A stretch of DNA of 52,772 nt. Origin: a virus. The position numbers and the translations under genes are program-made. Shown piece by piece: positions 41,604 through 51,559 of the stretch. Numbering within the stretch: position 1 is the first letter of the stretch; every line of letters begins with the position of its first letter. Under the pieces are notes generated by a model. The model searched no databases. It worked only from the letters and a program-made list of their open reading frames with translations, and was not told the origin of the DNA. The stretch spans positions 1 to 52,772 of IMG/VR virus record IMGVR_UViG_3300020470_000014. One strand, written 5' to 3'.

Positions 41604-41661
41604 ATTATAGGGCATGAGAGACCCTCTGACTGCTTCTAGTGGACACTCTCCCAACTGTCAC
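41604..41661 (-). promoter_or_regulatory. Promoter A: upstream element + TATAAT
   Basis: The -10 TATAAT is at 41609-41604, and the GTGACA half of the element begins at 41661, exactly 52 bp upstream. The second half is GTGTCCAC. No -35 TTGACA is present. It drives the 109-residue gene. Confidence 0.8.
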
Positions 41662-41724
41662 ATACTGCTCATAATACTCTAAGCACAGCATAGCATTCTG
41701 AAACTCCACAGAGTTATTATACAT
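41605..41724 (-). CDS. Possible 39-aa protein overlapping promoter A
   Basis: MYNNSVEFQNAMLCLEYYEQ runs on in frame through the promoter element (GTG ACA GTT is read as VTV, GTG TCC ACT as VST) and stops inside the -10 box. The N-terminal half is protein-like. If real, the C-terminal 18 residues are encoded by regulatory DNA, as in the 99-residue gene that carries promoter J. Confidence 0.45.
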   Translation of the reverse strand: MYNNSVEFQNAMLCLEYYEQYVTVGRVSTRSSQRVSHAL

Positions 41725-41957
41725 GCTTCGGGAAAGTGTGGCAATACTCCGAGGCACTTTGAGACATTTAGAAGTCTTATGTGTGGGTTCGGGGATGTGC
41801 TTGACATTTTCAGAGTTTTATGGTAGGATGCACGCCAAGATGACTATAAAAACTCCCCTTAATTATAAAAACTCAAGAGAGAGATAGAGCACGCAACTAT
41901 GTTTTTTTATACCTTTTTTAAATAGCATAAAAAAAGACTCTTCTCTCTCTGAGCACC
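41725..41957. other. 233-bp gene-free stretch
   Basis: No minus-strand gene is seen. It contains a plus-strand promoter-like sequence (41801-41829), a 12-bp near-perfect direct repeat (TATAAAAACTC at ~41845 and ~41865), and an inverted repeat. In the inverted repeat CTCAAGAGAGAGA (~41872) can pair with TCTCTCTCTGAG (~41942). It is AT-rich with A/T homopolymers. It may encode a small plus-strand RNA. Confidence 0.4.
41801..41829 (+). promoter_or_regulatory. Sigma-70-like promoter on the plus strand
   Basis: TTGACA, a 17-bp spacer and TAGGAT, with TGG before the hexamer (extended -10 type). It points against all genes of the window and towards a gene-free stretch, so an antisense or small RNA would be the product. 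Confidence 0.45.
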
Positions 41958-42128
41958 TTAGAGTTCTTGTGCTACCTCTACCTGCTCTTTAAGTTTGAGC
42001 AGGTTATTATACATGATTCCCTTATCAGGATTGCTTACAGTCGCATAGGGTTTGAGCGCTTGAAGCGTTAATAGTTTTATAAGGGATAGTTGCTCATAGG
42101 TAAAAGCGGTTAGTGTATTCTCAGGCAT
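41958..42128 (-). CDS. Small hypothetical protein (56 aa)
   Basis: MPENTLTAFTYEQLSLIKLL begins a helical protein ending LLKLKEQVEVAQEL. The start lies 8 bp inside the end of the preceding gene (ATG within the last codons), typical of coupled translation. It is the last gene of the unit that starts at promoter K. The function is unknown. Confidence 0.75.
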   Translation of the reverse strand: MPENTLTAFTYEQLSLIKLLTLQALKPYATVSNPDKGIMYNNLLKLKEQVEVAQEL

Positions 42129-42300
42129 TAAACTGTCCGAGGTTCTCAACATAAACGCTTTTCACTCTCTCCTTATGTCTCAGTTCTAAAAGTTCCTTCC
42201 AATTCCATTCACTAGGGCGTACACAGTTCTTATCGTCTACGGTAAAATCAAGTGTAACACGGTAGCGGGTAAACGTGTTCTTTTTTGTTTTGAGTGACAT
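42121..42300 (-). CDS. Small hypothetical protein (59 aa)
   Basis: The chosen start is MSLKTKKNTFTRYRVTLDFT, with five extra N-terminal residues possible from an upstream codon. The body has a strand (YRVTLDFTVDD), then N-W-K-E-L-L-E-L and VKSVYVENLGQFNA. It looks like a small alpha/beta protein. It is coupled to the next gene by an 8-bp overlap. Confidence 0.75.
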   Translation of the reverse strand: MSLKTKKNTFTRYRVTLDFTVDDKNCVRPSEWNWKELLELRHKERVKSVYVENLGQFNA

Positions 42301-42338
42301 GAGCGTTGAAAGCAATGGGATAAAACTAACACTTTATT

Positions 42339-42479
42339 TTATACCTTAGAGTGCTTATTGTCAATAGGATACCCATAATAAATCAGCACCTCCTGATATA
42401 ATGCCTCACTATCTCTGTAAGATAGCATTGCATATTTATTGGTTCGGGTCGCTGTTTCTTCCCTCATGTTTGCAGTCAT
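42339..42479 (-). CDS. Small hypothetical protein (up to 46 aa)
   Basis: The frame MTANMREETATRTNKYAMLS is followed by YRDSEALYQEVLIYYGYPID and NKHSKV. It overlaps the upstream gene by 44 bp in another frame. A start at an internal ATG (about residue 18, MLSYRDSEALYQEVL) would shorten it to 29 residues and remove most overlap. The C-terminal half is the protein-like part. Confidence 0.55.
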   Translation of the reverse strand: MTANMREETATRTNKYAMLSYRDSEALYQEVLIYYGYPIDNKHSKV

Positions 42480-42585
42480 AATGAATTAAAGTCTGTTGTA
42501 AGTTTAAAATTTTGGGCGCGGCGTCAGACTCACAAATAATGTAAGTTCTCTCTCTAGTCTTAATATCGGAGGCAAGTCTAATCAT
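42436..42585 (-). CDS. Small hypothetical protein (49 aa)
   Basis: MIRLASDIKTRERTYIICES is followed by DAAPKILNLQQTLIHYDCKH and a polar tail. The start overlaps the stop of the 97-residue gene (ATGA), strong evidence for translational coupling. One Cys in each half might be paired. The function is unknown. Confidence 0.65.
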   Translation of the reverse strand: MIRLASDIKTRERTYIICESDAAPKILNLQQTLIHYDCKHEGRNSDPNQ

Positions 42586-42875
42586 TTTGAGTATAATGTC
42601 CCCACGTTAGATTGTATAAAGTCCTTGGTATCTTGTACCGTGGGAAATGTTCTTAATCGGGATAGGATTAAAACCTGTTCCCCTTCTTCTAACTGTTGGG
42701 GCATATACTTGTAAAGGATAAATCCCTCGCCGTCAATGTTAGTGCAGATTTGACCAAAAAGCATTTCATTAAAGAAAATCCACTCCTTATGCCATACCTT
42801 TTCATTCGGGTCTAGGCGATAGGTGACATCGAACTCAGGGCGGTTCGGTGCTACTTGGGGGTTGTAGATTACCAT
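42582..42875 (-). CDS. Hypothetical protein (97 aa)
   Basis: MVIYNPQVAPNRPEFDVTYR is beta-rich with several Trp/Phe (VWHKEWIFFNEMLFGQI) and a helix near the end (TVQDTKDFIQSN). It starts 9 bp after the preceding stop and overlaps the next gene by 4 bp. There is no recognisable family. It is part of the six-gene unit from promoter K. Confidence 0.75.
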   Translation of the reverse strand: MVIYNPQVAPNRPEFDVTYRLDPNEKVWHKEWIFFNEMLFGQICTNIDGEGFILYKYMPQQLEEGEQVLILSRLRTFPTVQDTKDFIQSNVGTLYSK

Positions 42876-42884
42876 GAGTGAGAA

Positions 42885-43073
42885 TTAATAAAGAGAGTCG
42901 ATTTTAGACTGGATAGAGGCAACACGGTCAGCAACTGGAATGCCTCCGATTAACTCATCTTCCGCAGCGTCAGGGTCATCATAAGCGATATAATCCTCAA
43001 GTGCAGCAGCAATGGTATCCAATTCTGCATCGGTGAAAAATTCTCTGATTGTTTCGATTGATGATAGTGACAT
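42885..43073 (-). CDS. Small acidic hypothetical protein (62 aa)
   Basis: MSLSSIETIREFFTDAELDT begins an all-helical, strongly acidic protein (AALEDYIAYDDPDAAEDELI). It is the first gene of the unit driven by promoter K, 22 bp after the -10. A highly acidic small early protein could act as an inhibitor or DNA mimic, but nothing specific supports that. Confidence 0.75.
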   Translation of the reverse strand: MSLSSIETIREFFTDAELDTIAAALEDYIAYDDPDAAEDELIGGIPVADRVASIQSKIDSLY

Positions 43074-43095
43074 GACTTTTTTAATTGATGTTTTT

Positions 43096-43153
43096 AGTAT
43101 AAGGGACTATTAGGGAAATTGGGGAAAGTGTGTGCCACTTTATGGGCAGTCAC
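43096..43153 (-). promoter_or_regulatory. Promoter K: upstream element + TATACT
   Basis: The -10 TATACT is at 43101-43096. The element begins with GTGACT at 43153 (52 bp) and its second half is GTGGCAC, 37 bp from the -10. The first half lies in the last codons of the upstream 55-residue gene. It drives six genes. Confidence 0.75.
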
Positions 43154-43307
43154 CATACTCACCCATAAGGCACTTGCCGTACATAACCTTAGCATATCCG
43201 TACTCTTGAGAGAGATCATAGCAAGAATCCCAACACTCATCAAGAGTAGCAAAGGTTTGATTTTCGAATGGTGCAGCGGGCACCTCAACTGTGTAATTAA
43301 CTTTCAT
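43140..43307 (-). CDS. Small Cys-containing hypothetical protein (55 aa)
   Basis: MKVNYTVEVPAAPFENQTFA is followed by TLDECWDSCYDLSQEYGYAK and a C-terminal GKCLMGEYGDCP. Four Cys (two as C-W-D-S-C) could bind a metal. The same positions in other frames give poorer reading frames. The start codon lies only about six bases after the -10 of promoter L, so the transcript may be nearly leaderless. Its 3' end overlaps the element of promoter K. Confidence 0.75.
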   Translation of the reverse strand: MKVNYTVEVPAAPFENQTFATLDECWDSCYDLSQEYGYAKVMYGKCLMGEYGDCP

Positions 43308-43313
43308 ACTATT

Positions 43314-43372
43314 AGTATGACACATAATCGGGTCATTTTCAATAGGTCTTATGCCTCTTTAATGAGTGGCAC
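43314..43372 (-). promoter_or_regulatory. Promoter L: upstream element inside an 11-bp dyad
   Basis: A CATACT box (43319-43314) lies 53 bp from GTGCCA (43372), with a degenerate second half GAGGCAT. The element is embedded in an 11-bp inverted repeat with one G-U (GGTCTTATGCC 43345-43355 and GGCACAAGACC 43368-43378). Confidence 0.5.
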
Positions 43373-43388
43373 AAGACCCCTTGCCAGA

Positions 43389-43781
43389 TTAATACTTAAT
43401 CATCTTATTATCCATAAGGATAACAGTATAGAATTTCTTTAAAAGATTTCTGTACTTGATTGTCAACATGTCGTAATTTGCATCCTTAACAAAAGCAATG
43501 TAGGATACAGTTGAAAATTTTGTTTTGTCGATATGGATTGCTTTATAGTCATCGGCGCTAATGTCATCCTGTGGAACATCGTAGACAACTTTGCCTACTA
43601 CAGTACCATGAATAAGGATATTTGCGAATGCTCCTCTCTGGTCGTATAAGTGATGCAAACTAACACCATTCTTCCAACTACCCTGACCATAGCAGTCAAT
43701 TTGAGTGAGTAGTAATTTCTGATATGTATCTAACCTTACTGTCTTGTTAGAGTGTTTTGCTAATACTGTTGAGAATGGCAT
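43389..43781 (-). CDS. Hypothetical protein (130 aa)
   Basis: MPFSTVLAKHSNKTVRLDTY contains LLTQIDCYGQGSWKNGVSLH, then YDQRGAFANILIHGTVVGKV and TVSYIAFVKDANYDMLTIKY. It is a single alpha/beta domain. I recognise no family. It is a single-gene unit behind promoter B, with a 25-bp leader. It is well separated from its neighbours and clearly coding. Confidence 0.8.
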   Translation of the reverse strand: MPFSTVLAKHSNKTVRLDTYQKLLLTQIDCYGQGSWKNGVSLHHLYDQRGAFANILIHGTVVGKVVYDVPQDDISADDYKAIHIDKTKFSTVSYIAFVKDANYDMLTIKYRNLLKKFYTVILMDNKMIKY

Positions 43782-43805
43782 AGTGCTTTATGTGTTGTTA
43801 TATTC

Positions 43806-43863
43806 ATTATAACTTAGTGGCACCTGTATTCATTACATTATGTGCCACTAATCAAACTGTCAC
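43806..43863 (-). promoter_or_regulatory. Promoter B: upstream element + TATAAT
   Basis: TATAAT is at 43811-43806 and GTGACA begins at 43863 (52 bp). The second half GTGGCAC forms a perfect 10-bp inverted repeat with a further copy next to the -10 (TTAGTGGCAC/GTGCCACTAA). The element abuts the TAA of the upstream gene. Confidence 0.85.
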
Positions 43864-44028
43864 TTATGTGCTTGACTTGTGATAAAATCTCTCGTCTAAT
43901 TCTAAATTGTCGATGACAGATTTGGTTGCTTCCATTAAGTCTTCATCGTCAATTTCGAAGTCGGCAAACTCTACCAACTCATAGATTTTATTATACAAGT
44001 AATTGAACTGTTCAAAATTGCACTTCAT
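43864..44028 (-). CDS. Small acidic hypothetical protein (54 aa)
   Basis: MKCNFEQFNYLYNKIYELVE is followed by FADFEIDDEDLMEATKSVID and a polar tail. It is helical and acidic. Its ATG overlaps the stop of the 58-residue gene (ATGA). Its TAA is followed directly by the GTGACA of promoter B. Confidence 0.75.
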   Translation of the reverse strand: MKCNFEQFNYLYNKIYELVEFADFEIDDEDLMEATKSVIDNLELDERFYHKSST

Positions 44029-44201
44029 AAGTATGTCACCTTAGCATTAATGATTGCATCAAATAGATTATCGAATGTTTGAACATCGAAGTCATCCGCC
44101 TCATTTAATGTGTCAAGGATTTGCTCCTGTGAGCACATGATGTTATAGAGGTGCTGATACTGACTTTTAGTGAGATCAATGTTAAGTCCTTTTCTTGCCA
44201 T
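44025..44201 (-). CDS. Small hypothetical protein (58 aa)
   Basis: MARKGLNIDLTKSQYQHLYN is followed by IMCSQEQILDTLNEADDFDV and QTFDNLFDAIINAKVTYL. It is helical throughout. It is the first gene behind promoter M and is coupled to the 54-residue gene by ATGA. The two proteins share a Y-N-[KI]-I-x-E/C helix pattern and similar length, so they may be distant paralogues or partners. Confidence 0.75.
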   Translation of the reverse strand: MARKGLNIDLTKSQYQHLYNIMCSQEQILDTLNEADDFDVQTFDNLFDAIINAKVTYL

Positions 44202-44228
44202 GATGTTTGAATGATTGTTTATATGTTT

Positions 44229-44286
44229 ATTGTAGATGCTATTATAAGCAAATAGGATAATAGTATGACGGTTTTTTGATTGTCAC
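44229..44286 (-). promoter_or_regulatory. Promoter M (variant): GTGACA element + TACAAT
   Basis: GTGACA begins at 44286 and overlaps the TGA stop of the 70-residue gene. TACAAT lies exactly 52 bp downstream (44234-44229), and a better TATAAT lies 40 bp downstream. The second half of the element is degenerate (CCGTCAT). Confidence 0.45.
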
Positions 44287-44495
44287 TCAGCATAGTTTAC
44301 TCCGTCAAATACTCTTAACTCTGTGGTATAGTTGACTAACTGCTCAAACCCATCTTCTGAAATTTTGATTTCTTTGAGCAACTCAGGCGATGCACATTCA
44401 TTAAGGTAAGTGACCATGTACTCAAGTTGCTCGAGTGCTTCAATGCTGAAACCGTGCTTTGCTTCGATTTCTGTAATGTCTGGAAATTGGTGCAT
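44283..44495 (-). CDS. Small acidic hypothetical protein (70 aa)
   Basis: MHQFPDITEIEAKHGFSIEA begins a helical protein with LEQLEYMVTYLNECASPELL. It is a single-gene unit behind promoter C with an unusually long, hairpin-bearing leader of about 79 bases. Its TGA lies inside the GTGACA of promoter M. The function is unknown. Confidence 0.75.
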   Translation of the reverse strand: MHQFPDITEIEAKHGFSIEALEQLEYMVTYLNECASPELLKEIKISEDGFEQLVNYTTELRVFDGVNYAE

Positions 44496-44520
44496 TTAAG
44501 TTAATGAATGAAAAATGATT

Positions 44521-44574
44521 ATCAGGTTAAAAGGTATCCCTAAGCAGTTGTGAATGTTTAGCAATTAACCTGAT
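44521..44574 (-). other. 5'-terminal leader stem of the 70-aa gene
   Basis: ATCAGGTTAA and TTAACCTGAT form a perfect 10-bp stem around a 34-base loop. The predicted transcription start from promoter C (about seven bases after TATAAT) falls at the first base of the stem. A 5'-terminal stem could protect the mRNA or control initiation. Confidence 0.6.
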
Positions 44575-44580
44575 ACTATT

Positions 44581-44638
44581 ATTATAACTTAGTGACACAT
44601 GTATTTGCTACATCATGTGACACTAATAAAACTGTCCT
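44581..44638 (-). promoter_or_regulatory. Promoter C: upstream element + TATAAT
   Basis: TATAAT is at 44586-44581. The element begins AGGACAG at 44638 (52 bp), where the TAG stop of the upstream gene replaces the first bases of GTGACA. The second half is GTGTCAC, and a third GTGTCACTAA lies next to the -10, as in promoter B. Confidence 0.8.
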
Positions 44639-44792
44639 AATGGTTCTTGACAAGATAATCGCCAGTTTGTATTCTCTCAAATACTGCTGTTTGTTCATCA
44701 GTCAAATCGAAATCCATATCTCTGAGAATATCCCAAAGTTTAATCATTTGATATGACTCATCAAAAGAGATTGGCACATTAATCACTGGCAT
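44637..44792 (-). CDS. Small hypothetical protein (51 aa)
   Basis: MPVINVPISFDESYQMIKLW is followed by DILRDMDFDLTDEQTAVFER and IQTGDYLVKNH. It has a strand, then two helices. It overlaps the preceding gene by 10 bp. The stop codon TAG is part of promoter C. The function is unknown. Confidence 0.75.
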   Translation of the reverse strand: MPVINVPISFDESYQMIKLWDILRDMDFDLTDEQTAVFERIQTGDYLVKNH

Positions 44793-44962
44793 AAGTCCTC
44801 AAACATTTTCTGTGCTAATCCTTCAATAGCGTCTCTAGTGCCTTTGTCTAGCACAAGCAATTCATCCAACTCTTTTTGAGTTAATTTGTTACTGACTCTG
44901 AACTCTTCTTCAGCGTCAACTAGGCAAGTCTCTAGAATTGCCTCATGATGTAAAACTGACAT
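44783..44962 (-). CDS. Small hypothetical protein (59 aa)
   Basis: MSVLHHEAILETCLVDAEEE is followed by FRVSNKLTQKELDELLVLDK and a helical tail ending LAQKMFEDLCQ. It follows an AGGAGAA site and lies 26 bp after the -10 of promoter D. It is helical and acidic, of unknown function. Confidence 0.75.
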   Translation of the reverse strand: MSVLHHEAILETCLVDAEEEFRVSNKLTQKELDELLVLDKGTRDAIEGLAQKMFEDLCQ

Positions 44963-44987
44963 AAGTTCTCCTTTTGTTTATATTACT

Positions 44988-45045
44988 ATTATAGAGCAAA
45001 TAACTCACTTATTTGCTTCTAGTGTGACAGTAATTAAATTGTCCT
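44988..45045 (-). promoter_or_regulatory. Promoter D: upstream element + TATAAT
   Basis: TATAAT is at 44993-44988, with AGGACA at 45045 (52 bp) overlapping the TAG of the upstream gene. The second half is CTGTCAC. A perfect 9-bp dyad AGCAAATAA/TTATTTGCT abuts the -10. Confidence 0.78.
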
Positions 45046-45346
45046 AACGAACAGCATAAACTGTATCTAAATTCTGATTTTCAACACTTGCTGAACCATA
45101 ATCAGTTGCCCACTCTATACAACTTTTCTTCGCTGTTTTCAAATCATTTGTATAATGCTCATGATACCCAAGCGGATGATCTGGAACTATGATAGTATAA
45201 GCAAACTTGTTTCTAGGATGATTTGGTTCTCTTTTTAAATTCTCACGTTGAATGATCTTTAATTGCTCTAGTGACTTTTCAAGTAATTCCCTAGTTGATA
45301 GATCATCGTATCTAGGTGATGGGTTATCAAAAATTAGTTTGTCCAT
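45044..45346 (-). CDS. Hypothetical protein (100 aa)
   Basis: I start it at MDKLIFDNPSPRYDDLSTRE. Upstream in-frame codons fall in the promoter. Contents are a charged helix (LLEKSLEQLKIIQRENLKRE), then KFAYTIIVPDHPLGYHEHYT and AKKSCIEWATDYGSASVEN. It is an alpha/beta protein with a possible small beta-sheet domain. It is a single-gene unit from promoter E. Its TAG forms part of promoter D. Confidence 0.75.
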   Translation of the reverse strand: MDKLIFDNPSPRYDDLSTRELLEKSLEQLKIIQRENLKREPNHPRNKFAYTIIVPDHPLGYHEHYTNDLKTAKKSCIEWATDYGSASVENQNLDTVYAVR

Positions 45347-45370
45347 TAAATTTTTGTTTGTTATGTACTC

Positions 45371-45428
45371 ATTATAGAGCAAATAACAAACAAAAATATA
45401 ACTTATGTGCCACTAATGAAAGTGTCAC
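45371..45428 (-). promoter_or_regulatory. Promoter E: upstream element + TATAAT
   Basis: TATAAT is at 45376-45371. GTGACA begins at 45428 (52 bp), and the second half is GTGGCAC. The 16 bp at the -10 (TTATTTGCTCTATAAT) are identical to promoter D. Confidence 0.82.
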
Positions 45429-45431
45429 AAA

Positions 45432-45665
45432 CTACCTTGCCAAATACTTTGTTTCAGTCAACAATCGTTGCCATTCACTTTCTTCGCCATAATGATTAAC
45501 GATTTCATCCTGAAGTTCGGCATCATTGCACTTACTGTAATAGTCATAAATTTGATCGTAGGCGATTTGGCATAGTGTATCCAAATCCATATTATCAACT
45601 ACCTCATTAGCAAATTTATCACAAATTGCTTCGAATTGAGGCAGGGGCAGTTTGTAATTAGTCAT
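45432..45665 (-). CDS. Small acidic hypothetical protein (77 aa)
   Basis: The chosen start is MTNYKLPLPQFEAICDKFAN, which lies 8 bp inside the end of the preceding gene. The longer upstream frame is a shadow of that gene. The body is helical (VVDNMDLDTLCQIAYDQIYD, then YYSKCNDAELQDEIVNHYGE). It is the last of five genes from promoter F. Confidence 0.75.
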   Translation of the reverse strand: MTNYKLPLPQFEAICDKFANEVVDNMDLDTLCQIAYDQIYDYYSKCNDAELQDEIVNHYGEESEWQRLLTETKYLAR

Positions 45666-45918
45666 CGTAGCAAGTCTCCAGTTTGGCATAGATTGAGTCA
45701 ATTTCAGCAGGCAATTTGTTCTCGGGAACATCAGTCAAGGCAGCATCCAAATAGTAAAGAATAGTGCTGACTTCGCCTTCCGTGAATGTAATTACATGCT
45801 CACGGTTAAGTTCATCTTCCGTGGGTAATCCGTCACCATACTCTAATCCCTCGGATTGAGATTCATACCAAAATTTATCCCACTCTTTTGGGTTGTTGGT
45901 AACATCCTCGATTCGCAT
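45658..45918 (-). CDS. Acidic hypothetical protein (86 aa)
   Basis: MRIEDVTNNPKEWDKFWYES contains REHVITFTEGEVSTILYYLD and AALTDVPENKLPAEIDSIYA. It is helical and acidic. The start overlaps the preceding stop (TAATG) behind a GGAGG site. The function is unknown. Confidence 0.78.
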   Translation of the reverse strand: MRIEDVTNNPKEWDKFWYESQSEGLEYGDGLPTEDELNREHVITFTEGEVSTILYYLDAALTDVPENKLPAEIDSIYAKLETCYDD

Positions 45919-46052
45919 TAATCTGCCTCCAGATTGAAAGTAATTTCAAATTCAGTAGTAAAATCTTGATAGTCGGTAATGACAAGAGGGCAGATATTTA
46001 ACCACTCTTGAAAATCTTTGTACCGTTGCTCTAATTCCTGTTCTCTAGTCAT
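45918..46052 (-). CDS. Small hypothetical protein (44 aa)
   Basis: MTREQELEQRYKDFQEWLNI is followed by CPLVITDYQDFTTEFEITFN and LEAD. A charged helix leads into strands. It overlaps the preceding gene by 8 bp and the next by one base (TAATG), so it is locked into the coupled operon. Confidence 0.75.
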   Translation of the reverse strand: MTREQELEQRYKDFQEWLNICPLVITDYQDFTTEFEITFNLEAD

Positions 46053-46380
46053 CGGTTCCAATCTCCTCAAGTGATTTCATAATTGTAACAGTACGATTAA
46101 TTAATGACTCCCTACAATCTAACAAGTCGCCATCATTTAATTCTCTTAATGAAGTGTTTAGTTCCTCGGTCTCATTCCAAGCATCCTCGATTAAGATAGG
46201 GTTAGAACCATCCGAGAATTGTTGTAGTCTCTCGACTACTTCCTCGAAAGAAAAATCTCTGTTGATGGCATTATCACCAAAGGCAATTTCAAAAACGTCT
46301 TCAATAAATTGGTCTTTTGTCATAGTACGAATTGTAAGTTTATCAAGTTGTTTAAACGTATCTTTAAAAAGTTCTTCCAT
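46045..46380 (-). CDS. Acidic hypothetical protein (111 aa)
   Basis: MEELFKDTFKQLDKLTIRTM starts 2 bp after the preceding stop. A second start at MTKDQFIEDVFEIAFG (46323) would also fit. The body is helical and acidic (FEEVVERLQQFSDGSNPILI and later ELNTSLRELNDGDLLDCRES). No family is recognised. Confidence 0.75.
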   Translation of the reverse strand: MEELFKDTFKQLDKLTIRTMTKDQFIEDVFEIAFGDNAINRDFSFEEVVERLQQFSDGSNPILIEDAWNETEELNTSLRELNDGDLLDCRESLINRTVTIMKSLEEIGTDD

Positions 46381-46382
46381 GA

Positions 46383-46580
46383 TTAAAAAGGATTTGTCCA
46401 GTTATATGCTTGATAGTCACTTACATAACCATCTTTATTGAGCATGTCAACAAAGTTATTCCAGTCCTCACGTTTAGCAACTACATCACCTCTTAAACTT
46501 GGGTTATGTGCTACTGCCACATTCCAGTTGTAACGAAACTGTGCTAGGACTGCTGCTTTAGTTGCTTTCCACTTTGCCAT
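46383..46580 (-). CDS. Small conserved protein (65 aa)
   Basis: MAKWKATKAAVLAQFRYNWN is followed by VAVAHNPSLRGDVVAKREDW and a tail ending SDYQAYNWTNPF. It follows a strong AAAGGAG site and a 31-bp leader from promoter F. The W-K/N-N-F-V-D-x-L-N-K-D-G segment is a compact helical pattern that I recall from other cyanophages without function. It is the first gene of a five-gene unit. Confidence 0.8.
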   Translation of the reverse strand: MAKWKATKAAVLAQFRYNWNVAVAHNPSLRGDVVAKREDWNNFVDMLNKDGYVSDYQAYNWTNPF

Positions 46581-46611
46581 TTTGAAAAAACTCCTTTGTT
46601 TGTATGTTCTT

Positions 46612-46668
46612 ATTATAATGGATCATTGATCCAAATCAACGAATAGTGGACACTAATAGAACTGTCAC
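46612..46668 (-). promoter_or_regulatory. Promoter F: upstream element + TATAAT
   Basis: TATAAT is at 46617-46612 and GTGACA begins at 46668 (51 bp). The second half is GTGTCCAC. A perfect GGATCA/TGATCC dyad abuts the -10. Confidence 0.85.
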
Positions 46669-46682
46669 AGAAGTTATTGCCT

Positions 46683-46973
46683 TTATACCATACACTGCTC
46701 AAGAATTGATAAGTTCAAAGGCATAGCAGTATATGGCGAAGTGTCCTCTATTCTGACTTGTTTTCCTTTTCTTTTTGAATTGATAGGGGCGAAGTAATCG
46801 CCTCTCTTATAGTCGTAGAATCCCCAGATACAACTAGTTTTGCTACCAGAATTGTAAACAAACTCACGGTCAAATACAATCCAAATTGAGCATAAATTAG
46901 ACGTTTTGGTGTGAAATTCATAGTGATAACCTTTTGGTGCTGTGTGTGGGAAATTAAAACTATTATCGAACAT
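46683..46973 (-). CDS. Hypothetical protein (96 aa)
   Basis: The chosen start is MFDNSFNFPHTAPKGYHYEF, 11 bp inside the end of the preceding gene. Upstream codons are shared with that gene in another frame. The protein is beta-rich and aromatic (SIWIVFDREFVYNSGSKTSC, then IWGFYDYKRGDYFAPINSKR). It probably forms a small beta-barrel. The function is unknown. Confidence 0.75.
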   Translation of the reverse strand: MFDNSFNFPHTAPKGYHYEFHTKTSNLCSIWIVFDREFVYNSGSKTSCIWGFYDYKRGDYFAPINSKRKGKQVRIEDTSPYTAMPLNLSILEQCMV

Positions 46974-47379
46974 ATAGGTAACCACCTGCCCAGTCTGCCC
47001 TTTCAAAGCATAGTTTTCTGCTCTTATCGTCTAACAAGTTGTAGCGGATGCCATTTGGTTGCGGTTTAGTCCATGATGCCGCTTTATGAACATCACCAGT
47101 ATTAGCATCAACAAAGCAATGAACAGATTGACTGCCGTCGTTTTTATGAATTACCTTAAGAAACTTACGCCCTTTCTTGATATAAAACTCATGATCTACG
47201 CCACTAAGGTTAATCTCTCTTATTTGTCTAATATGGTAAAGTTCATCATTTCCACTACTTGATATAATTGACCTATGATGCCATTTAATTTGATCTTCTT
47301 TAATTTTCTCATAAAGAATGTCACACAATTCTAGAGTGTGATTAAAGACTTGCTCTTTTTGAGTGGTTGTAGTTGACAT
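46963..47379 (-). CDS. Conserved phage hypothetical protein (138 aa)
   Basis: MSTTTTQKEQVFNHTLELCD is followed by a core VHCFVDANTGDVHKAASWTK and a C-terminus GIRYNLLDDKSRKLCFERAD. The phrase F-V-D-x-x-T-G-D-V-x-K-A-A-S-W is one I recognise from small proteins of many large tailed phages. Their function is unknown to me. It is beta-rich in the middle. It overlaps the next gene by 11 bp. Confidence 0.83.
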   Translation of the reverse strand: MSTTTTQKEQVFNHTLELCDILYEKIKEDQIKWHHRSIISSSGNDELYHIRQIREINLSGVDHEFYIKKGRKFLKVIHKNDGSQSVHCFVDANTGDVHKAASWTKPQPNGIRYNLLDDKSRKLCFERADWAGGYLYVR

Positions 47380-47398
47380 AATAAAAAAGAAAATAAGA

Positions 47399-47650
47399 TT
47401 AACAAGCGCAGCAGAGTGCGGAATTAAAAAGTTGGGGAATAGTGTGAAGTTCAGTCACCTCATAACCATAACCCTCTACTCGGGAATCAATTTCATAATC
47501 CATGTCCTTACGGTTGATGTATCGCTTGGACTGTAAATCCTTACCGAAAGTAACAGTTTTGTAGATCAATCGTTGACTGATAGTTCCATCAGCATAGGTG
47601 ACAGGGTAAAAATCAACTTTGATCGTACCGCATTTTGAAACTAGTTGCAT
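47399..47650 (-). CDS. Small hypothetical protein (83 aa)
   Basis: MQLVSKCGTIKVDFYPVTYA is followed by DGTISQRLIYKTVTFGKDLQ and a tail with E-G-Y-G-Y-E-V-T-E-L-H and a terminal C-C-A-C. It follows AAAGGGA and promoter G. It is beta-rich. The clustered Cys at the end (C-C-x-C) might bind a metal. Confidence 0.78.
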   Translation of the reverse strand: MQLVSKCGTIKVDFYPVTYADGTISQRLIYKTVTFGKDLQSKRYINRKDMDYEIDSRVEGYGYEVTELHTIPQLFNSALCCAC

Positions 47651-47745
47651 GATGAAATCCCTTTGACTCTTTTATTATAGGGTATGGCGGGTCGCCTGGC
47701 GCCTCTGGTGGACTGTTTGGGAACTGTCACACCATCGGTTGCCAT
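47641..47745 (-). CDS. Possible 34-aa protein read through promoter G
   Basis: The frame MATDGVTVPKQSTRGARRPA, then IPYNKRVKGISSCN, contains the promoter G element in the same phase as promoters A and J (GTG ACA GTT read as VTV). It overlaps the start of the 83-residue gene by 10 bp. It could be a real micro-protein or a relic of a gene tail. It starts only 15 bp upstream of the element. Confidence 0.3.
   Translation of the reverse strand: MATDGVTVPKQSTRGARRPAIPYNKRVKGISSCN
47674..47730 (-). promoter_or_regulatory. Promoter G: upstream element + TATAAT
   Basis: TATAAT is at 47679-47674 and GTGACA begins at 47730 (51 bp). The second half is degenerate (CAGTCCAC). The spacer is unusually GC-rich, with GGCG/CGCC repeats. 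Confidence 0.78.
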
Positions 47746-47760
47746 TCTAAAATAACAATT

Positions 47761-48096
47761 TTACAAGTAAGTTACTTCGCCATTCTCAACTGCTTCCATG
47801 TATTCACACATATCACTATGTGCCTTCTCTTTATTGTCATTATTTTCTTTCCATGTCAAATCTTTATAAATTTCTAACAATTTACATAGATTCAATCCCT
47901 CTAGGTCAGTCCAGTTACCAACATACTCTAATTGACTTTCATCATATCCACCGCCTTTTAATGATGGCGCTGTGATAAACTCAAATGCAATGTCAATGAA
48001 AAAATGTCTACCGAACTCTTTACTTTCTACTGTTTGAAGTGGTAAAAACTTACCATGCTTATCGTTTAGATAGTCTTTAAAAATGTAAGTTCTCAT
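47761..48096 (-). CDS. Hypothetical protein (111 aa)
   Basis: MRTYIFKDYLNDKHGKFLPL contains FGRHFFIDIAFEFITAPSLK and LCKLLEIYKDLTWKENNDNK. It is an alpha/beta protein. The start overlaps the stop of the 73-residue gene by one base. It is the second gene of the promoter H unit. No family is recognised. Confidence 0.78.
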   Translation of the reverse strand: MRTYIFKDYLNDKHGKFLPLQTVESKEFGRHFFIDIAFEFITAPSLKGGGYDESQLEYVGNWTDLEGLNLCKLLEIYKDLTWKENNDNKEKAHSDMCEYMEAVENGEVTYL

Positions 48097-48317
48097 TAAA
48101 CTGCTCCATAAATTTGGTTCATTAAGTCACGGACTCTTTCTCTGTCTAGTGAATCACCATCACCCCAAGTGAATAGTGGATTACCAGTAGCACATTGATC
48201 TAGGTAGGAAAGAGTAGCAAAAGCAATCTGTTCTTTAGTCCTATTGTTCTCAGGATAGATGCCGCCTTTACCGTAGAAACTAAAGACGTACTCAATAAAT
48301 TCTTGAAAGTTTTGCAT
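48096..48317 (-). CDS. Conserved phage small protein (73 aa)
   Basis: MQNFQEFIEYVFSFYGKGGI is followed by YPENNRTKEQIAFATLSYLD and WGDGDSLDRERVRDLMNQIY. The combination F-Y-G-K-G-G-I-Y ... G-D-S-x-D-R-E-x-V-R-D-[LI]-M is widespread in tailed phages in my memory. It forms a small helical protein whose role is unknown. It is the first gene behind promoter H. Confidence 0.83.
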   Translation of the reverse strand: MQNFQEFIEYVFSFYGKGGIYPENNRTKEQIAFATLSYLDQCATGNPLFTWGDGDSLDRERVRDLMNQIYGAV

Positions 48318-48341
48318 AATGCTTTATTGGTTGTTATTCTT

Positions 48342-48399
48342 ATTATAGTCCTATGTGTTCACTTATGGTGATACTGTGTGCCACTAATAAAACTGGCAC
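48342..48399 (-). promoter_or_regulatory. Promoter H: upstream element + TATAAT
   Basis: TATAAT is at 48347-48342 and GTGCCA begins at 48399 (52 bp). The second half is GTGGCAC. The 15 bp further upstream (CAAGAACTATT) resemble the coding end that precedes promoter C. Confidence 0.82.
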
Positions 48400-48433
48400 A
48401 ATAGTTCTTGACTAATAAGAATTTCATGTAATT

Positions 48434-48676
48434 CTATTTGTGTGCCATGTGTTCGGCATCCTCTTTGATGTAATCTCTGACTGAATGAGCAAGTGACTCT
48501 ATCTCTTGATATATTTGTGTGGGTGTGTGATACTCGTATGGTTCATAAGCATTTTCACTTAGAAAATCGTCAAGTTGCTCATCATCCCATGTATCGAAGT
48601 CAGGGGGCAATGTCTCACATAAAATGTGACTTGATGCAAAAATGAAATCTTGCTTTTTGTATGTGATGTATTCCAT
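48434..48676 (-). CDS. Acidic hypothetical protein (80 aa)
   Basis: MEYITYKKQDFIFASSHILC contains TWDDEQLDDFLSENAYEPYE and TPTQIYQEIESLAHSVRDYI. It is helical and acidic. It starts 2 bp after the preceding stop and is the last of the five-gene promoter I unit. Confidence 0.77.
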   Translation of the reverse strand: MEYITYKKQDFIFASSHILCETLPPDFDTWDDEQLDDFLSENAYEPYEYHTPTQIYQEIESLAHSVRDYIKEDAEHMAHK

Positions 48677-48678
48677 GA

Positions 48679-48948
48679 TTAAATCCTCTGTAGATTATAG
48701 TTCATAATCTCTTCATTATCATAATCTGAATTGCCTGATCTATATTTCTCAGGGTCTTTAAGAATGTAATCCCACGCTACTTCCATCAAGTCCTGATTTT
48801 CCCATTGGGTTATATCGGACTCTTCTTCATCGAAATCCATTTCTTTACAATAATCTTCCCAAATATCATCAAATGATATTTCAAAATTTTGGTAATAGTC
48901 AGTTCTTGTTGTGAACTGCATAACATACTGTTGTTTAACTTGTGGCAT
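48679..48948 (-). CDS. Acidic hypothetical protein (89 aa)
   Basis: MPQVKQQYVMQFTTRTDYYQ is followed by a very acidic run (DDIWEDYCKEMDFDEEESDI) and helices. It has an excellent AAGGAGG site lying in the end of the preceding gene, with a TAATG overlap. The function is unknown. Confidence 0.78.
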   Translation of the reverse strand: MPQVKQQYVMQFTTRTDYYQNFEISFDDIWEDYCKEMDFDEEESDITQWENQDLMEVAWDYILKDPEKYRSGNSDYDNEEIMNYNLQRI

Positions 48949-49121
48949 TAGTCCTCCTTTGGATAGTGGTTAGTAATCATGTCTTCAACTTGATTAAGTT
49001 GATCTTTTGTCATTATTTCAATCATAAAATCAATTAGGTCATAGGGTGTTCCGTTGTCGCCCTCTTCAATAATTGATGCTATTTCTGAAAAGATTGTTGT
49101 TTTTTGGTCTTTGTATTTCAT
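48948..49121 (-). CDS. Small acidic hypothetical protein (57 aa)
   Basis: MKYKDQKTTIFSEIASIIEE is followed by GDNGTPYDLIDFMIEIMTKD and QLNQVEDMITNHYPKED. It is helical. Both ends overlap neighbours (ATGA and TAATG). The final Lys-Glu-Asp codons form the ribosome-binding site of the next gene. Confidence 0.77.
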   Translation of the reverse strand: MKYKDQKTTIFSEIASIIEEGDNGTPYDLIDFMIEIMTKDQLNQVEDMITNHYPKED

Positions 49122-49306
49122 TCTGAAAATTCCTCTATCATTGCATCTATTTCAGCAGCACATTCGCCACATCGCCAACCATGTACTTCATCGCCATAGT
49201 AGGCATAACGATTAACAAATCTACCTGAACCTATGCGGCAAGATTTACCACAGTCAACACATATTTCTTTGTCAAATATGTTATCGGGTGTAATTACTAC
49301 TTCCAT
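49118..49306 (-). CDS. Zinc-ribbon-like small protein (62 aa)
   Basis: Two Cys pairs, C16-x-x-C19 (plus C23) and C46-x-x-C49, flank a 26-residue aromatic loop, as in a zinc ribbon (ICVDCGKSC ... WRCGECAAEI). A C-terminal acidic helix follows. Such small ribbons often bind nucleic acid or RNA polymerase. With no further evidence this is only a possibility. It overlaps the previous gene by 10 bp and the next by 4 bp. Confidence 0.8.
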   Translation of the reverse strand: MEVVITPDNIFDKEICVDCGKSCRIGSGRFVNRYAYYGDEVHGWRCGECAAEIDAMIEEFSE

Positions 49307-49440
49307 AACACCTCTGGGTTCCAGTCGGATTGCTGTTTCTTGTATAAGTCCTCAACAGAGCAACCTTTACGTCTTGCAACTTGTCTTGCAATCATTGCTT
49401 CCCATCTTAGGAAAGACTCATAACGTTGTTTGTTAGTCAT
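49297..49440 (-). CDS. Small basic hypothetical protein (47 aa)
   Basis: MTNKQRYESFLRWEAMIARQ is followed by VARRKGCSVEDLYKKQQSDW and NPEVLWK. It is helical and basic, unlike its acidic neighbours. It is the first gene of the promoter I unit, 22 bp after the -10. DNA or RNA binding is possible from charge only. Confidence 0.75.
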   Translation of the reverse strand: MTNKQRYESFLRWEAMIARQVARRKGCSVEDLYKKQQSDWNPEVLWK

Positions 49441-49462
49441 AGATGTCTTTGTTGTTATATTA

Positions 49463-49520
49463 AGTATAACTCAAGGGCAACACAGTTAGTGTAATGATGT
49501 GACACTAAGTGTATTGTCAC
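49463..49520 (-). promoter_or_regulatory. Promoter I: upstream element + TATACT
   Basis: TATACT is at 49468-49463 and GTGACA begins at 49520 (52 bp). The second half is GTGTCAC. It drives five overlapping genes. Confidence 0.82.
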
Positions 49521-49521
49521 A

Positions 49522-49779
49522 CTACCACATATCATCAGGTTTCTTTGCCTGATTTCTAATCATTTTATCGTACTCTTTTTCTGATCTAGTTTGAAGTCTA
49601 GAAGCAATGTTTTTCAATTCAGCAAGTTTATCTTCTATTTCAGGATATTCAAATTCATTTCCAGTCTCATTGATCTCATCACATTTCCATTCAAGATAGT
49701 AAATGACATCATGTAGTTCATGCCATGTAAAAGGCACTTTAATTGATTTGTTTTGAGTGTGGCGGTGGTCTCTCATCAT
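49522..49779 (-). CDS. Hypothetical protein (85 aa)
   Basis: The chosen start is MMRDHRHTQNKSIKVPFTWH, overlapping the preceding TGA (ATGA) behind AGAGGA. An upstream in-frame ATG would add 11 residues encoded within the preceding gene. The body is a long charged helix region (LHDVIYYLEWKCDEINETGN, then KLAELKNIASRLQTRSEKEY), probably coiled coil. The stop lies 2 bp from promoter I. Confidence 0.77.
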   Translation of the reverse strand: MMRDHRHTQNKSIKVPFTWHELHDVIYYLEWKCDEINETGNEFEYPEIEDKLAELKNIASRLQTRSEKEYDKMIRNQAKKPDDMW

Positions 49780-49937
49780 TGTTGAAAATCCTCTGATAAT
49801 AGTGTACCCCATTGAGTGTAGATGTATGGGAATTGCTGTGACAGTTTGAGATTCTGCATATACATTTCTTGTGTATATTCCTCGTCAGTCTCATTATAAA
49901 ACTGCCATTTAAGTTCTGCTTCTTTTCTTGAGATCAT
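49776..49937 (-). CDS. Small hypothetical protein (53 aa)
   Basis: MISRKEAELKWQFYNETDEE is followed by YTQEMYMQNLKLSQQFPYIY and a tail ending LLSEDFQQ. It is helical and charged. The start is coupled to the preceding gene by TAATG and the end to the next by ATGA. Confidence 0.75.
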   Translation of the reverse strand: MISRKEAELKWQFYNETDEEYTQEMYMQNLKLSQQFPYIYTQWGTLLSEDFQQ

Positions 49938-50134
49938 TACATGTATGCGGTTAATGAATGTAGTAAATTTGTTTGATACTCAATGTGTGTTATCTTTGCT
50001 CCAGTCTTATGTTCAATCTTAGAGCGTAGATCATTACCATTCTTTGCTGTCCATATCCCAATATATTCAGAGATCATGTCATGCTCTTTGTCTAGTTCAA
50101 GTTCAGTAACTAGGTAAAATGTTTCTTTCTTCAT
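49937..50134 (-). CDS. Small hypothetical protein (65 aa)
   Basis: MKKETFYLVTELELDKEHDM is followed by YIGIWTAKNGNDLRSKIEHK and an I-T-H-I-E-Y strand. It has a compact alpha/beta pattern. Its start overlaps the preceding stop (ATGA). The function is unknown. Confidence 0.77.
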   Translation of the reverse strand: MKKETFYLVTELELDKEHDMISEYIGIWTAKNGNDLRSKIEHKTGAKITHIEYQTNLLHSLTAYM

Positions 50135-50400
50135 TTTATCCTCACACCTCTATAGTCCCACTTCTTTTGAAGTTGAACTGCTTCCTGATTGCCATCATAG
50201 CATTCTTGTAGTATATCTCTAGTCTTAAGATGCAATGATTTAATCACATCTTTGCCATAGTATTCATGCTCAATAACATCATGTCCTGTGCATTGTCCGC
50301 CCCATTCTGTGACATCGCTATCAAGTCTGTTGTATAGTCCCTTAGTAATATAATTTAAGAGACCAAATTCTCGGCGAGAGAGTGTGATCGTATGAGTCAT
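50131..50400 (-). CDS. Hypothetical protein (89 aa)
   Basis: MTHTITLSRREFGLLNYITK contains EWGGQCTGHDVIEHEYYGKD and LHLKTRDILQECYDGNQEAV. It is mixed alpha/beta with several His. It is the first gene after a ~94-base structured leader and promoter T, and heads a four-gene coupled unit. Confidence 0.77.
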   Translation of the reverse strand: MTHTITLSRREFGLLNYITKGLYNRLDSDVTEWGGQCTGHDVIEHEYYGKDVIKSLHLKTRDILQECYDGNQEAVQLQKKWDYRGVRIK

Positions 50401-50421
50401 TTAATTGGTAATGAATTAGTG

Positions 50422-50495
50422 TGTGGAAGAGGTTCGACTTAAAGAGATTTTCCACGGTGTGTTGACCGAATTGGTTCTCACCCTTGCCTTCCACA
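50422..50495 (-). other. Structured 5' leader of the 89-aa gene
   Basis: The 8-bp arms TGTGGAAG and CTTCCACA close a ~74-base leader whose first base coincides with the expected transcription start of promoter T. An inner CGGT/ACCG hairpin is also present. The length (74) recalls a tRNA, but the D- and T-arm signatures are missing. Confidence 0.5.
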
Positions 50496-50500
50496 TTTAT

Positions 50501-50558
50501 AATATACCAATAAAAAAGACCCCTGTGGGGTCTTAGTAGACGGTTATTTAATTGTCAC
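50501..50558 (-). promoter_or_regulatory. Promoter T (variant): GTGACA + TATATT across a terminator
   Basis: GTGACA begins at 50558 just after the upstream stop, and TATATT is exactly 52 bp downstream (50506-50501). The second half of the element is degenerate. An intrinsic terminator lies between the two. Confidence 0.45.
50512..50534 (-). terminator. Rho-independent terminator
   Basis: Minus-strand AAGACCCC and GGGGTCTT form a perfect 8-bp stem with a three-base loop, followed by a T-run. It ends the six-gene unit from promoter J. It works on the minus strand only, since no T-run follows on the plus side. Confidence 0.92.
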
Positions 50559-50560
50559 AC

Positions 50561-50728
50561 TCAAAATATATTTGTCCATCGAGTATGATTTACTTTAGAA
50601 AGTCTACCCTCTTTAAGCATATTATCACACACCCTACAAAATACCTCAAACTTCTGTTCTCTTGTAAGAGTATCTGCCCCATCACATTTTTTCATGATCT
50701 TGAGCATGTATGCTTTGGAAGTAATCAT
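50561..50728 (-). CDS. Small basic hypothetical protein (55 aa)
   Basis: MITSKAYMLKIMKKCDGADT is followed by LTREQKFEVFCRVCDNMLKE and a basic tail ending HTRWTNIF. It has three Cys (one C-R-V-C). It is the last gene before the terminator. It is helical, basic and possibly metal- or nucleic-acid-binding. The plus-strand frame over it is antisense noise. Confidence 0.77.
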   Translation of the reverse strand: MITSKAYMLKIMKKCDGADTLTREQKFEVFCRVCDNMLKEGRLSKVNHTRWTNIF

Positions 50729-50732
50729 TTGA

Positions 50733-50891
50733 TTAAGAGATAATTTTCCTCAGGTTTTGAACATCCCACTCAGGATAATTGAAGCGTACCCAGTTAATAC
50801 AGTCAAGGGCATTTGCCTTGTCTAATACTGTGATAAACTTATACAAGTGATCTTCAGTTTTACTTTGTAGGATTAATTTGTAGTCCATCAT
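50733..50891 (-). CDS. Small hypothetical protein (52 aa)
   Basis: MMDYKLILQSKTEDHLYKFI is followed by TVLDKANALDCINWVRFNYP and EWDVQNLRKIIS. The pattern is strand-helix-strand-helix. The start is ATGATG, the first ATG overlapping the upstream TGA, so the two are coupled. Confidence 0.77.
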   Translation of the reverse strand: MMDYKLILQSKTEDHLYKFITVLDKANALDCINWVRFNYPEWDVQNLRKIIS

Positions 50892-51016
50892 TTGCGTAGA
50901 GGAGAATTGTAATAACGGCGAAAGGCAGTAAAAAGAATAATGGCAGTGCTAATGACACCGACCATACCGAGAACAGTAATGCCATCGCCTGCGAAAGAAT
51001 AAGTGTCGATCGTCAT
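50888..51016 (-). CDS. Single-span membrane micro-protein (42 aa)
   Basis: MTIDTYSFAGDGITVLGMVG is followed by VISTAIILFTAFRRYYNSPL and R-K. Residues ~13-32 form one hydrophobic span, followed by a positive R-R-Y-Y-N-S-P-L-R-K end. The positive end suggests N-out/C-in. The function is unknown. Its length and topology are like small photosynthetic-complex or host-takeover membrane peptides, but no specific family is recognised. It is coupled to both neighbours by ATGA. Confidence 0.72.
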   Translation of the reverse strand: MTIDTYSFAGDGITVLGMVGVISTAIILFTAFRRYYNSPLRK

Positions 51017-51219
51017 TTTAGTTGAATGTCGTAGTCAATAGATTTAATGCACCAACCTGATGCTGCTGTGATTTCTTCAATTAAATCATCTTCACTATCT
51101 GCATCCCAGACACCAAGTGTTAGGTCACGAAGTGAAATCTCTTCATCAAATGTGAGTTCGAATCCGTTGGCATAATCGTCATCAAAATCAAACTCAACTT
51201 CGGTTACGTTGAATTTCAT
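51013..51219 (-). CDS. Very acidic hypothetical protein (68 aa)
   Basis: MKFNVTEVEFDFDDDYANGF is followed by ELTFDEEISLRDLTLGVWDA and DSEDDLIEEITAASGWCIKS. It is strongly acidic and beta-rich with a helix near the end. Acidic DNA-mimic or inhibitor proteins have this kind of composition, but there is no direct support. It is coupled to the membrane micro-protein gene (ATGA). Confidence 0.77.
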   Translation of the reverse strand: MKFNVTEVEFDFDDDYANGFELTFDEEISLRDLTLGVWDADSEDDLIEEITAASGWCIKSIDYDIQLK

Positions 51220-51221
51220 AG

Positions 51222-51299
51222 TTAATGTGGATTAAATTTGTATAGGTAGTAAATTGCAACTATGAGTACAATTAAAACTACTGAAAGAAATGTTAGCAT
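51222..51299 (-). CDS. Possible membrane micro-protein (25 aa)
   Basis: MLTFLSVVLIVLIVAIYYLY then KFNPH. Residues 2-18 form a strongly hydrophobic span. It fills exactly the gap between the 56-residue gene (4 bp away) and the acidic 68-residue gene (2 bp away), which supports it. It is too short to judge otherwise. Confidence 0.55.
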   Translation of the reverse strand: MLTFLSVVLIVLIVAIYYLYKFNPH

Positions 51300-51303
51300 A
51301 GAA

Positions 51304-51474
51304 TTATTTTAGTTCAATAAGTCCCTGTGAGGCAAGGGCATGAAGGGTTCGACCATAATGACCCTGCAACCATTTCCAGGCGCCAGTGTCATAAATGTTC
51401 TGAAACAGTTGGAGAAACTCTTCCTCTGTAATGTTATCTGATTCATACTTGAGAAGCAGATCGGTGTTAGGCAT
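51304..51474 (-). CDS. Conserved phage small protein (56 aa)
   Basis: The start is MPNTDLLLKYESDNITEEEF behind CAGGAG. The signature Y-E-S-x-x-[IL]-[TS]-E-E-E, then L-F-Q-x-[LI]-x-D-T-G-A-W-x-L-Q-G-H-Y-G-R and a final A-L-x-x-Q-G-L-I is extremely widespread in tailed phages (DUF7417-like as I recall). The function is unknown. It is the first gene of the promoter J unit. Confidence 0.88.
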   Translation of the reverse strand: MPNTDLLLKYESDNITEEEFLQLFQNIYDTGAWKWLQGHYGRTLHALASQGLIELK

Positions 51475-51501
51475 CGTTACTCCTGTTTGTTTGACTCTTA
51501 T

Positions 51502-51559
51502 AGTATCACACAGATTTGACCAATTCGGCGGGTTTAGTGGACACTTCGGGAACTGGCAC
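51502..51559 (-). promoter_or_regulatory. Promoter J: upstream element inside a coding end + GATACT
   Basis: GTGCCA begins at 51559 and the second half is GTGTCCAC. GATACT lies exactly 52 bp downstream (51507-51502). The element lies wholly in the last codons of the 99-residue gene (read as VPVPEVST). It drives six genes. Confidence 0.65.

Follow-up and report, generated by a model that had tools for sequence, protein, structure and literature searches.

A putative promoter class built on a 24-bp dyad is family-wide in cyanomyoviruses, and the same element occurs in a host genus and a host mobile element

Introduction

The late promoters of phages P2 and P4, activated by Ogr and Delta, respectively, combine a dyad near -55 with the lack of a consensus -35, and their small dimeric activator contacts RNA polymerase. 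Bacterial ribosomal RNA (rRNA) promoters can likewise carry an upstream activator site, such as that for Fis at rrnB P1. For the T4-like cyanophage Syn9, Doron et al. 2016 reportedly described a novel regulatory element for early-gene transcription. Here we analyse a promoter class from IMG/VR record IMGVR_UViG_3300020470_000014, the whole of which (52,772 nt; hereafter, the window) is a fragment of a T4-like cyanomyovirus, with PHROGs matches to the baseplate wedge proteins gp25 and gp6 and with Sf-FS3 and S-SSM7 as the closest isolate relatives. Its promoters share a 24-bp dyad at a nearly fixed distance upstream of a -10 hexamer; the class is family-wide in cyanomyoviruses, and the same element is found in a genus of their cyanobacterial hosts and on a host mobile element. 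Cyanomyoviruses are devoid of motA and asiA as well as of the T4 Alt/Mod polymerase modification, and a 2010 review regarded their early transcription as unresolved (PMC2984593).

Results

Fourteen putative promoters of one layout in the small-gene region

The window contains 14 minus-strand sites in which 51-54 bp, and mostly 52, separate the element from a -10 hexamer; every one of them falls in the small-gene region at 41604-51559. Sites are named by the first G of the element, which on the minus strand is the upper coordinate of each promoter. The first-pass annotation, which had listed 13-14 such sites across 10 kb, proved accurate in this respect, as all 14 are present. Its spacing of 52 bp, with 51 in two sites and 53 in one, was recovered with 52 in ten sites, 51 in 47730 and 46668, and 53 in 43372, whereas 51559 is ambiguous and can be read as 52 or 54. 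The sites are located between genes: the dyad begins on or close to the preceding gene's stop codon, and for 11 of the 14 sites the distance from the first G to the next ATG is 80-88 bp, such that the promoters occupy the ~80-90 bp gaps separating the small-gene units.

Alignment of the sites from relatives redefined the element. What had been described as GTGaCA-N9-GTGnCAC is indeed repeated, but is really a 24-bp dyad, TGTGMCASTT-N4-AAGTGKCACA, with the promoter-proximal right half being the stricter one. Taking the -10 to start at -12, the dyad extends from about -65 to -42 with the centre at about -53, an activator-type upstream position close to the earlier estimate of -64 to -43. The conserved block stops ~29 bp before the -10, and conservation at -30 is weak. 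As annotated, no TTGACA is present at -35 in the window sites, and this largely holds for the relatives, where a match of 5/6 or better at 15-19 bp from the -10 was found in only 13 of the 83 sites from named genomes; a classical sigma70 promoter with a -35 was rejected on this ground.

The motif GTGACA-N9-GTGNCAC, with up to two mismatches, matched 17 times in the window against 3.9 expected, a number reached by 0 of 100 shuffled sequences. A strict composite, requiring at least 9 of 10 element positions and a -10 at 51-53 bp, was found 7 times, always beyond 41 kb and never in bases 1-41,000, whereas 200 shuffles yielded a mean of 0.06 (maximum 1) and the reversed window sequence none. The frequency in shuffled sequence, a comparison proposed in the first-pass annotation, is thus not equal to that in the window.

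Spread among viruses

The exact 22-base composite, searched with the -10 spacing relaxed to 49-55, was found in at least 120 marine viral stretches in IMG/VR. Among the matches listed, 79 of 80 loci encoded cyanomyovirus-matching proteins, and the spacing in 123 placements was 52 in 77, 53 in 20, 55 in 11, and 51 and 54 in 7 each. The scan of related cyanomyoviruses that had been suggested along with the original site list revealed enrichment of the strict composite in six named genomes, with forward versus reversed counts of 4/0 in Syn9, 5/0 in P-HM2, 10/0 in P-SSM4, 12/1 in S-TIM4, 4/0 in S-PM2 and 24/0 in ACG-2014f, compared with 0/0 in T4. The spacing was 51-53 in most sites of these six viruses and is kept in relatives. 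A gapped exact pattern matched 18 times in ACG-2014f and was absent from the outgroups T4, Ma-LMM01, HTVC008M and P-SSP7; it was also absent from Sf-FS3, whose variant sites stand at 51-53. The other close relative, S-SSM7, has 13 sites at 52-53, mostly 77-86 bp ahead of an annotated coding sequence, a layout as in the window, and in Syn9 dyads 51-52 bp from a -10 precede small-gene units at 47205, 48559, 51001, 52997 and other positions. Across sites and genomes, the flanks and spacers vary, whereas the dyad, the spacing and the -10 are kept.

Downstream of the -10, many phage sites share a recurrent start region and leader, for example, AGTATAACAAACAAAGG or TATAAGAGTCAAAGG. The 29 bp from dyad to -10 include an intrinsic terminator that belongs to the preceding unit in 5 of 34 sites of ACG-2014f and 2 of 14 of S-PM2, and such terminators were also encountered among the sites of S-TIM4 and P-HM2 and, by eye, once in the window, where the spacer of site 50558 holds a terminator-like hairpin, AAGACCCCACAGGGGTCTTTTTT, followed by a T-run. 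The notion of a terminator in every spacer was rejected, because only a minority of sites have one, though above the background of 2-3%. The spacer terminators of ACG-2014f present a -35-like TTGGCA in the loop.

The dyad in host genomes

We surveyed 400 genomes of Cyanobiaceae for the phage-type element with up to two mismatches and obtained 25 matches in 12 genomes, against 2 matches in the reversed control. Twenty of the 25 fall in seven genomes of a single genus, in which 7 of 10 genomes are positive; the other sampled genomes of the family contribute five with a single match each. The 16S rRNA of one member of the dyad-bearing genus is 94.8% identical to that of WH7803, and it is a guess that this genus could be a group of sponge symbionts.

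Seven orthologous copies (L416, L418, L419, L420, L425, L426 and L430, in genomes G095, G067, G180, G118, G137, G013 and G153) occupy the region upstream of the rRNA operon, and in all four of these that were checked with Rfam, the 16S rRNA lies ~430 bp downstream of the dyad. In the seven-copy alignment, the dyad forms an isolated conserved block upstream of the conserved core region, with no conservation farther upstream. By eye, the rRNA promoters of typical marine Synechococcus and Prochlorococcus carry no such dyad.

The same genus also has copies upstream of genes for AAA-ATPases, an HNH protein and a HicB-like protein. At L414, L417, L422, L428, L431 and L432, the dyad stands ahead of genes for AAA_16/STAND-like ATPases, HNH_5 and HicB-like proteins, and unknown genes. 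A link of the host copies to defence genes is possible; PADLOC matched the AAA-ATPases too weakly for them to be assigned to a defence system. An integrative element adjoining tRNA-Ser in a further host genome (L399, G034:C1:110501-130000), which also encodes AlpA, carries two dyads: the first precedes a tyrosine integrase and has its -10 at 52, and the second, whose -10 is at 53, stands at the head of an operon containing a type IIG restriction-modification gene. A related integrase-like open reading frame in a second host genome also has the dyad upstream. No general host regulon was found in WH7803 or RCC307; conserved matches of the WH7803 type and those to GGGCCACTTAGCAAAGTGGCAA were discarded as representing coding or converging-gene sequence.

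Individual promoters of the window

The individual sites are compiled in Table 1. The weaker ones include 45045 and 44638, in which the element starts with AGGACA, and 44286, which lacks the right half; a variant of the right half of the dyad, GTGTCCAC, or its like is found in four sites. An extra GTGNCACTAA is situated immediately upstream of the -10 at sites 43863 and 44638. The two long leaders (minus strand, 44496-44588 and 50400-50505) fold better than most shuffled sequences, with z scores of -2.8 and -1.5, respectively, and matched no Rfam family.

Table 1. Dyad promoters on the minus strand of the window; distances in bp, counted from the first G of the element
Position	Element	-10 (distance)	ATG	Remarks
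51502..51559	GTGCCAGTTCCCGAAGTGTCCAC	GATACT (52) or TACTAT (54)	+85	either -10 weak
50501..50558	GTGACA element, degenerate right half	TATATT (52)	+158	long leader
49463..49520	GTGACAATACACTTAGTGTCAC	TATACT (52)	+80	
48342..48399	GTGCCAGTTTTATTAGTGGCAC	TATAAT (52)	+82	
47674..47730	GTGACAGTTCCCAAACAGTCCAC	TATAAT (51)	+80	
46612..46668	GTGACAGTTCTATTAGTGTCCAC	TATAAT (51)	+88	
45371..45428	GTGACACTTTCATTAGTGGCAC	TATAAT (52)	+82	
44988..45045	AGGACAATTTAATTACTGTCAC	TATAAT (52)	+83	
44581..44638	AGGACAGTTTTATTAGTGTCAC	TATAAT (52)	+143	extra GTGTCACTAA beside -10; structured long leader
44229..44286	GTGACAATCAAAAAACCGTCAT	TACAAT (52)	+85	weaker promoter
43806..43863	GTGACAGTTTGATTAGTGGCAC	TATAAT (52)	+82	extra GTGCCACTAA beside -10
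43314..43372	GTGCCACTCATTAAAGAGGCAT	CATACT (53)		uncertain promoter; weak -10
43096..43153	GTGACTGCCCATAAAGTGGCAC	TATACT (52)	+80	
41604..41661	GTGACAGTTGGGAGAGTGTCCAC	TATAAT (52)	+84	

Discussion

The explanation offered in the first-pass annotation, that of a recurring promoter class whose upstream site is of the activator type, still accounts best for the data, given that the sites are intergenic and their spacing is fixed across genomes. We propose, with a probability of roughly 60%, that a single early promoter class is used across Kyanoviridae and depends on a dimeric activator that binds the dyad and is most likely a host protein. Such an activator would occupy the 24-bp dyad, whose centre lies ~53 bp before the start site, and bring sigma70 RNA polymerase to promoters with a good -10 (TATAAT/TATACT) but no proper -35; the fixed spacing of 52-53 bp would set the activator on one face beside the polymerase, like class-I/II activators. 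The constant geometry, the two-fold symmetry of the site and the lack of a -35 all argue for a dimer in this position; promoter activity itself, and activation rather than repression, are predicted from the sequence. The promoters between the small-gene units would most probably be active early in the infection cycle. The rRNA-operon copies, combined with the presumed use at the start of infection, point to a host-encoded activator, which would also be in keeping with the dyads upstream of host mobile-element genes. The same tag at the rRNA promoter of one cyanobacterial genus suggests that a switch protein of the host is co-opted by the viruses. A broader version, to which we give somewhat less than an even chance, holds that cyanophage early genes work through a host activator whose dyad is the rRNA upstream element of a sister host genus and whose site is also carried by host mobile and defence elements, so that a single switch would serve the virus, the growth control of the host and islands directed against phages.

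Several observations weigh against this proposal. The main difficulty is the near absence of the dyad from typical host chromosomes: those of WH7803 and RCC307 are essentially devoid of it, although S-PM2, which infects WH7803, has many sites, and none was seen by eye at the rRNA promoters of these two strains. A host regulator with a regulon of its own would be difficult to square with this pattern. The presumed -10 of the rRNA-operon copy (TACCTT) is weak and lies at 55, not 52. Furthermore, the early timing is drawn from analogy with Syn9.

The scarcity of the dyad in most host genomes, including hosts of dyad-rich phages, would be explained if the activator was encoded by the phage or delivered with the virion, in which case the host copies in mobile and defence-like loci could be infection sensors exploiting the phage factor; that some of the non-rRNA host copies precede integrase, restriction-modification, AAA-ATPase, HNH and HicB-like genes fits this possibility. 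We nevertheless consider it less likely than a host factor, because a conserved copy is found at the rRNA operon of a host genus, which would not be left to an activator supplied only by viruses, and because early promoters require their factor ahead of any phage protein synthesis, except where it comes packaged in the virion. Moreover, a partial scan of the proteins common to the six phages revealed no obvious dimeric DNA-binding activator, the sole annotated regulator among those scanned being a 76-aa phrog_385 protein. Long palindromic sites are also typical of operators, and the extra copy at 43863 and 44638 overlaps the -35/-10 region, as would befit a repressor, for example, an early product shutting off early genes. 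Repressor sites, however, as a rule extend into the core promoter and can vary in spacing, whereas the main site here lies upstream of the -35, at a near-invariant distance from the -10, and the -35 is poor or missing, so that an operator function appears improbable.

The location directly after a stop codon, together with half-sites that could form a 9-bp stem, might instead point to an RNA hairpin serving the preceding unit as a terminator or 3'-end stabiliser. Two of the nine pairs, however, are conserved mismatches: pairs 3/18 and 6/15 are mainly A-G and G-G (48/83 and 43/83 named-genome sites, respectively), with no covariation, which makes an RNA structure unlikely and fits a protein dimer on DNA. 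No T-run follows the dyad, its distance to the -10 is fixed, and true terminators, where they occur, are distinct from it and located within the spacer; we accordingly hold a hairpin function to be very improbable. A chance pattern or a functionless duplicated repeat family, conceivable in a region rich in small and possibly duplicated genes, can be practically dismissed in view of the shuffled and reversed controls and of flanks and spacers that differ while the dyad, spacing and -10 are kept.

The dyad, its spacing and the genome-wide site list make the start of cyanomyovirus transcription directly testable, and the host rRNA copy suggests where to seek the binding protein. Given the copies on an integrative element bearing a restriction-modification system, host defence or satellite genes may be connected to the same switch as the phages they encounter.

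Among the described systems, the P2 Ogr/P4 Delta promoters resemble the present class in the position of the dyad and the absence of a consensus -35, but the P2 dyad reads TGTT-N12-AACA, whereas here the arms are TGTG and CACA with 16 bases between them, and the activator is a phage-encoded zinc-finger protein and the genes are late, compared with presumed early genes here; an Ogr-type promoter was rejected because its dyad is not matched. CRP (TGTGA-N6-TCACA) and NtcA (GTA-N8-TAC) sites were rejected as well, given that their half-site spacing differs from that of a 24-bp dyad with a 4-bp centre. T4 middle promoters, which depend on MotA/AsiA, similarly combine an upstream recognition site with a sigma70 -10, but the MotA box lies near -30, whereas the present site is centred near -53; as the first-pass annotation had maintained, these are not MotA-box promoters, the conserved block ending well short of the -10 with little conservation at -30. 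T4 early promoters share with this class the host sigma70 polymerase and the presumed early timing, but have a good -35, and T4 possesses the Alt/Mod polymerase modification, which cyanomyoviruses lack. In the one host genus, the arrangement resembles rRNA promoters of the Fis/rrnB P1 type, with the dyad as the upstream element of the rRNA operon and the presumed -10 at 55 rather than 52. A limited literature check, in which work citing Doron et al. 2016 did not give the motif of the Syn9 early element, turned up no report known to us of the dyad form, the family-wide geometry, or the rRNA-operon and mobile-element copies. The Syn9 genome carries the dyad, which is probably the early element reportedly described for that phage, so that the phage part of the class was probably already noticed; the dyad form, the family-wide spread and the host occurrences come from the present analysis.

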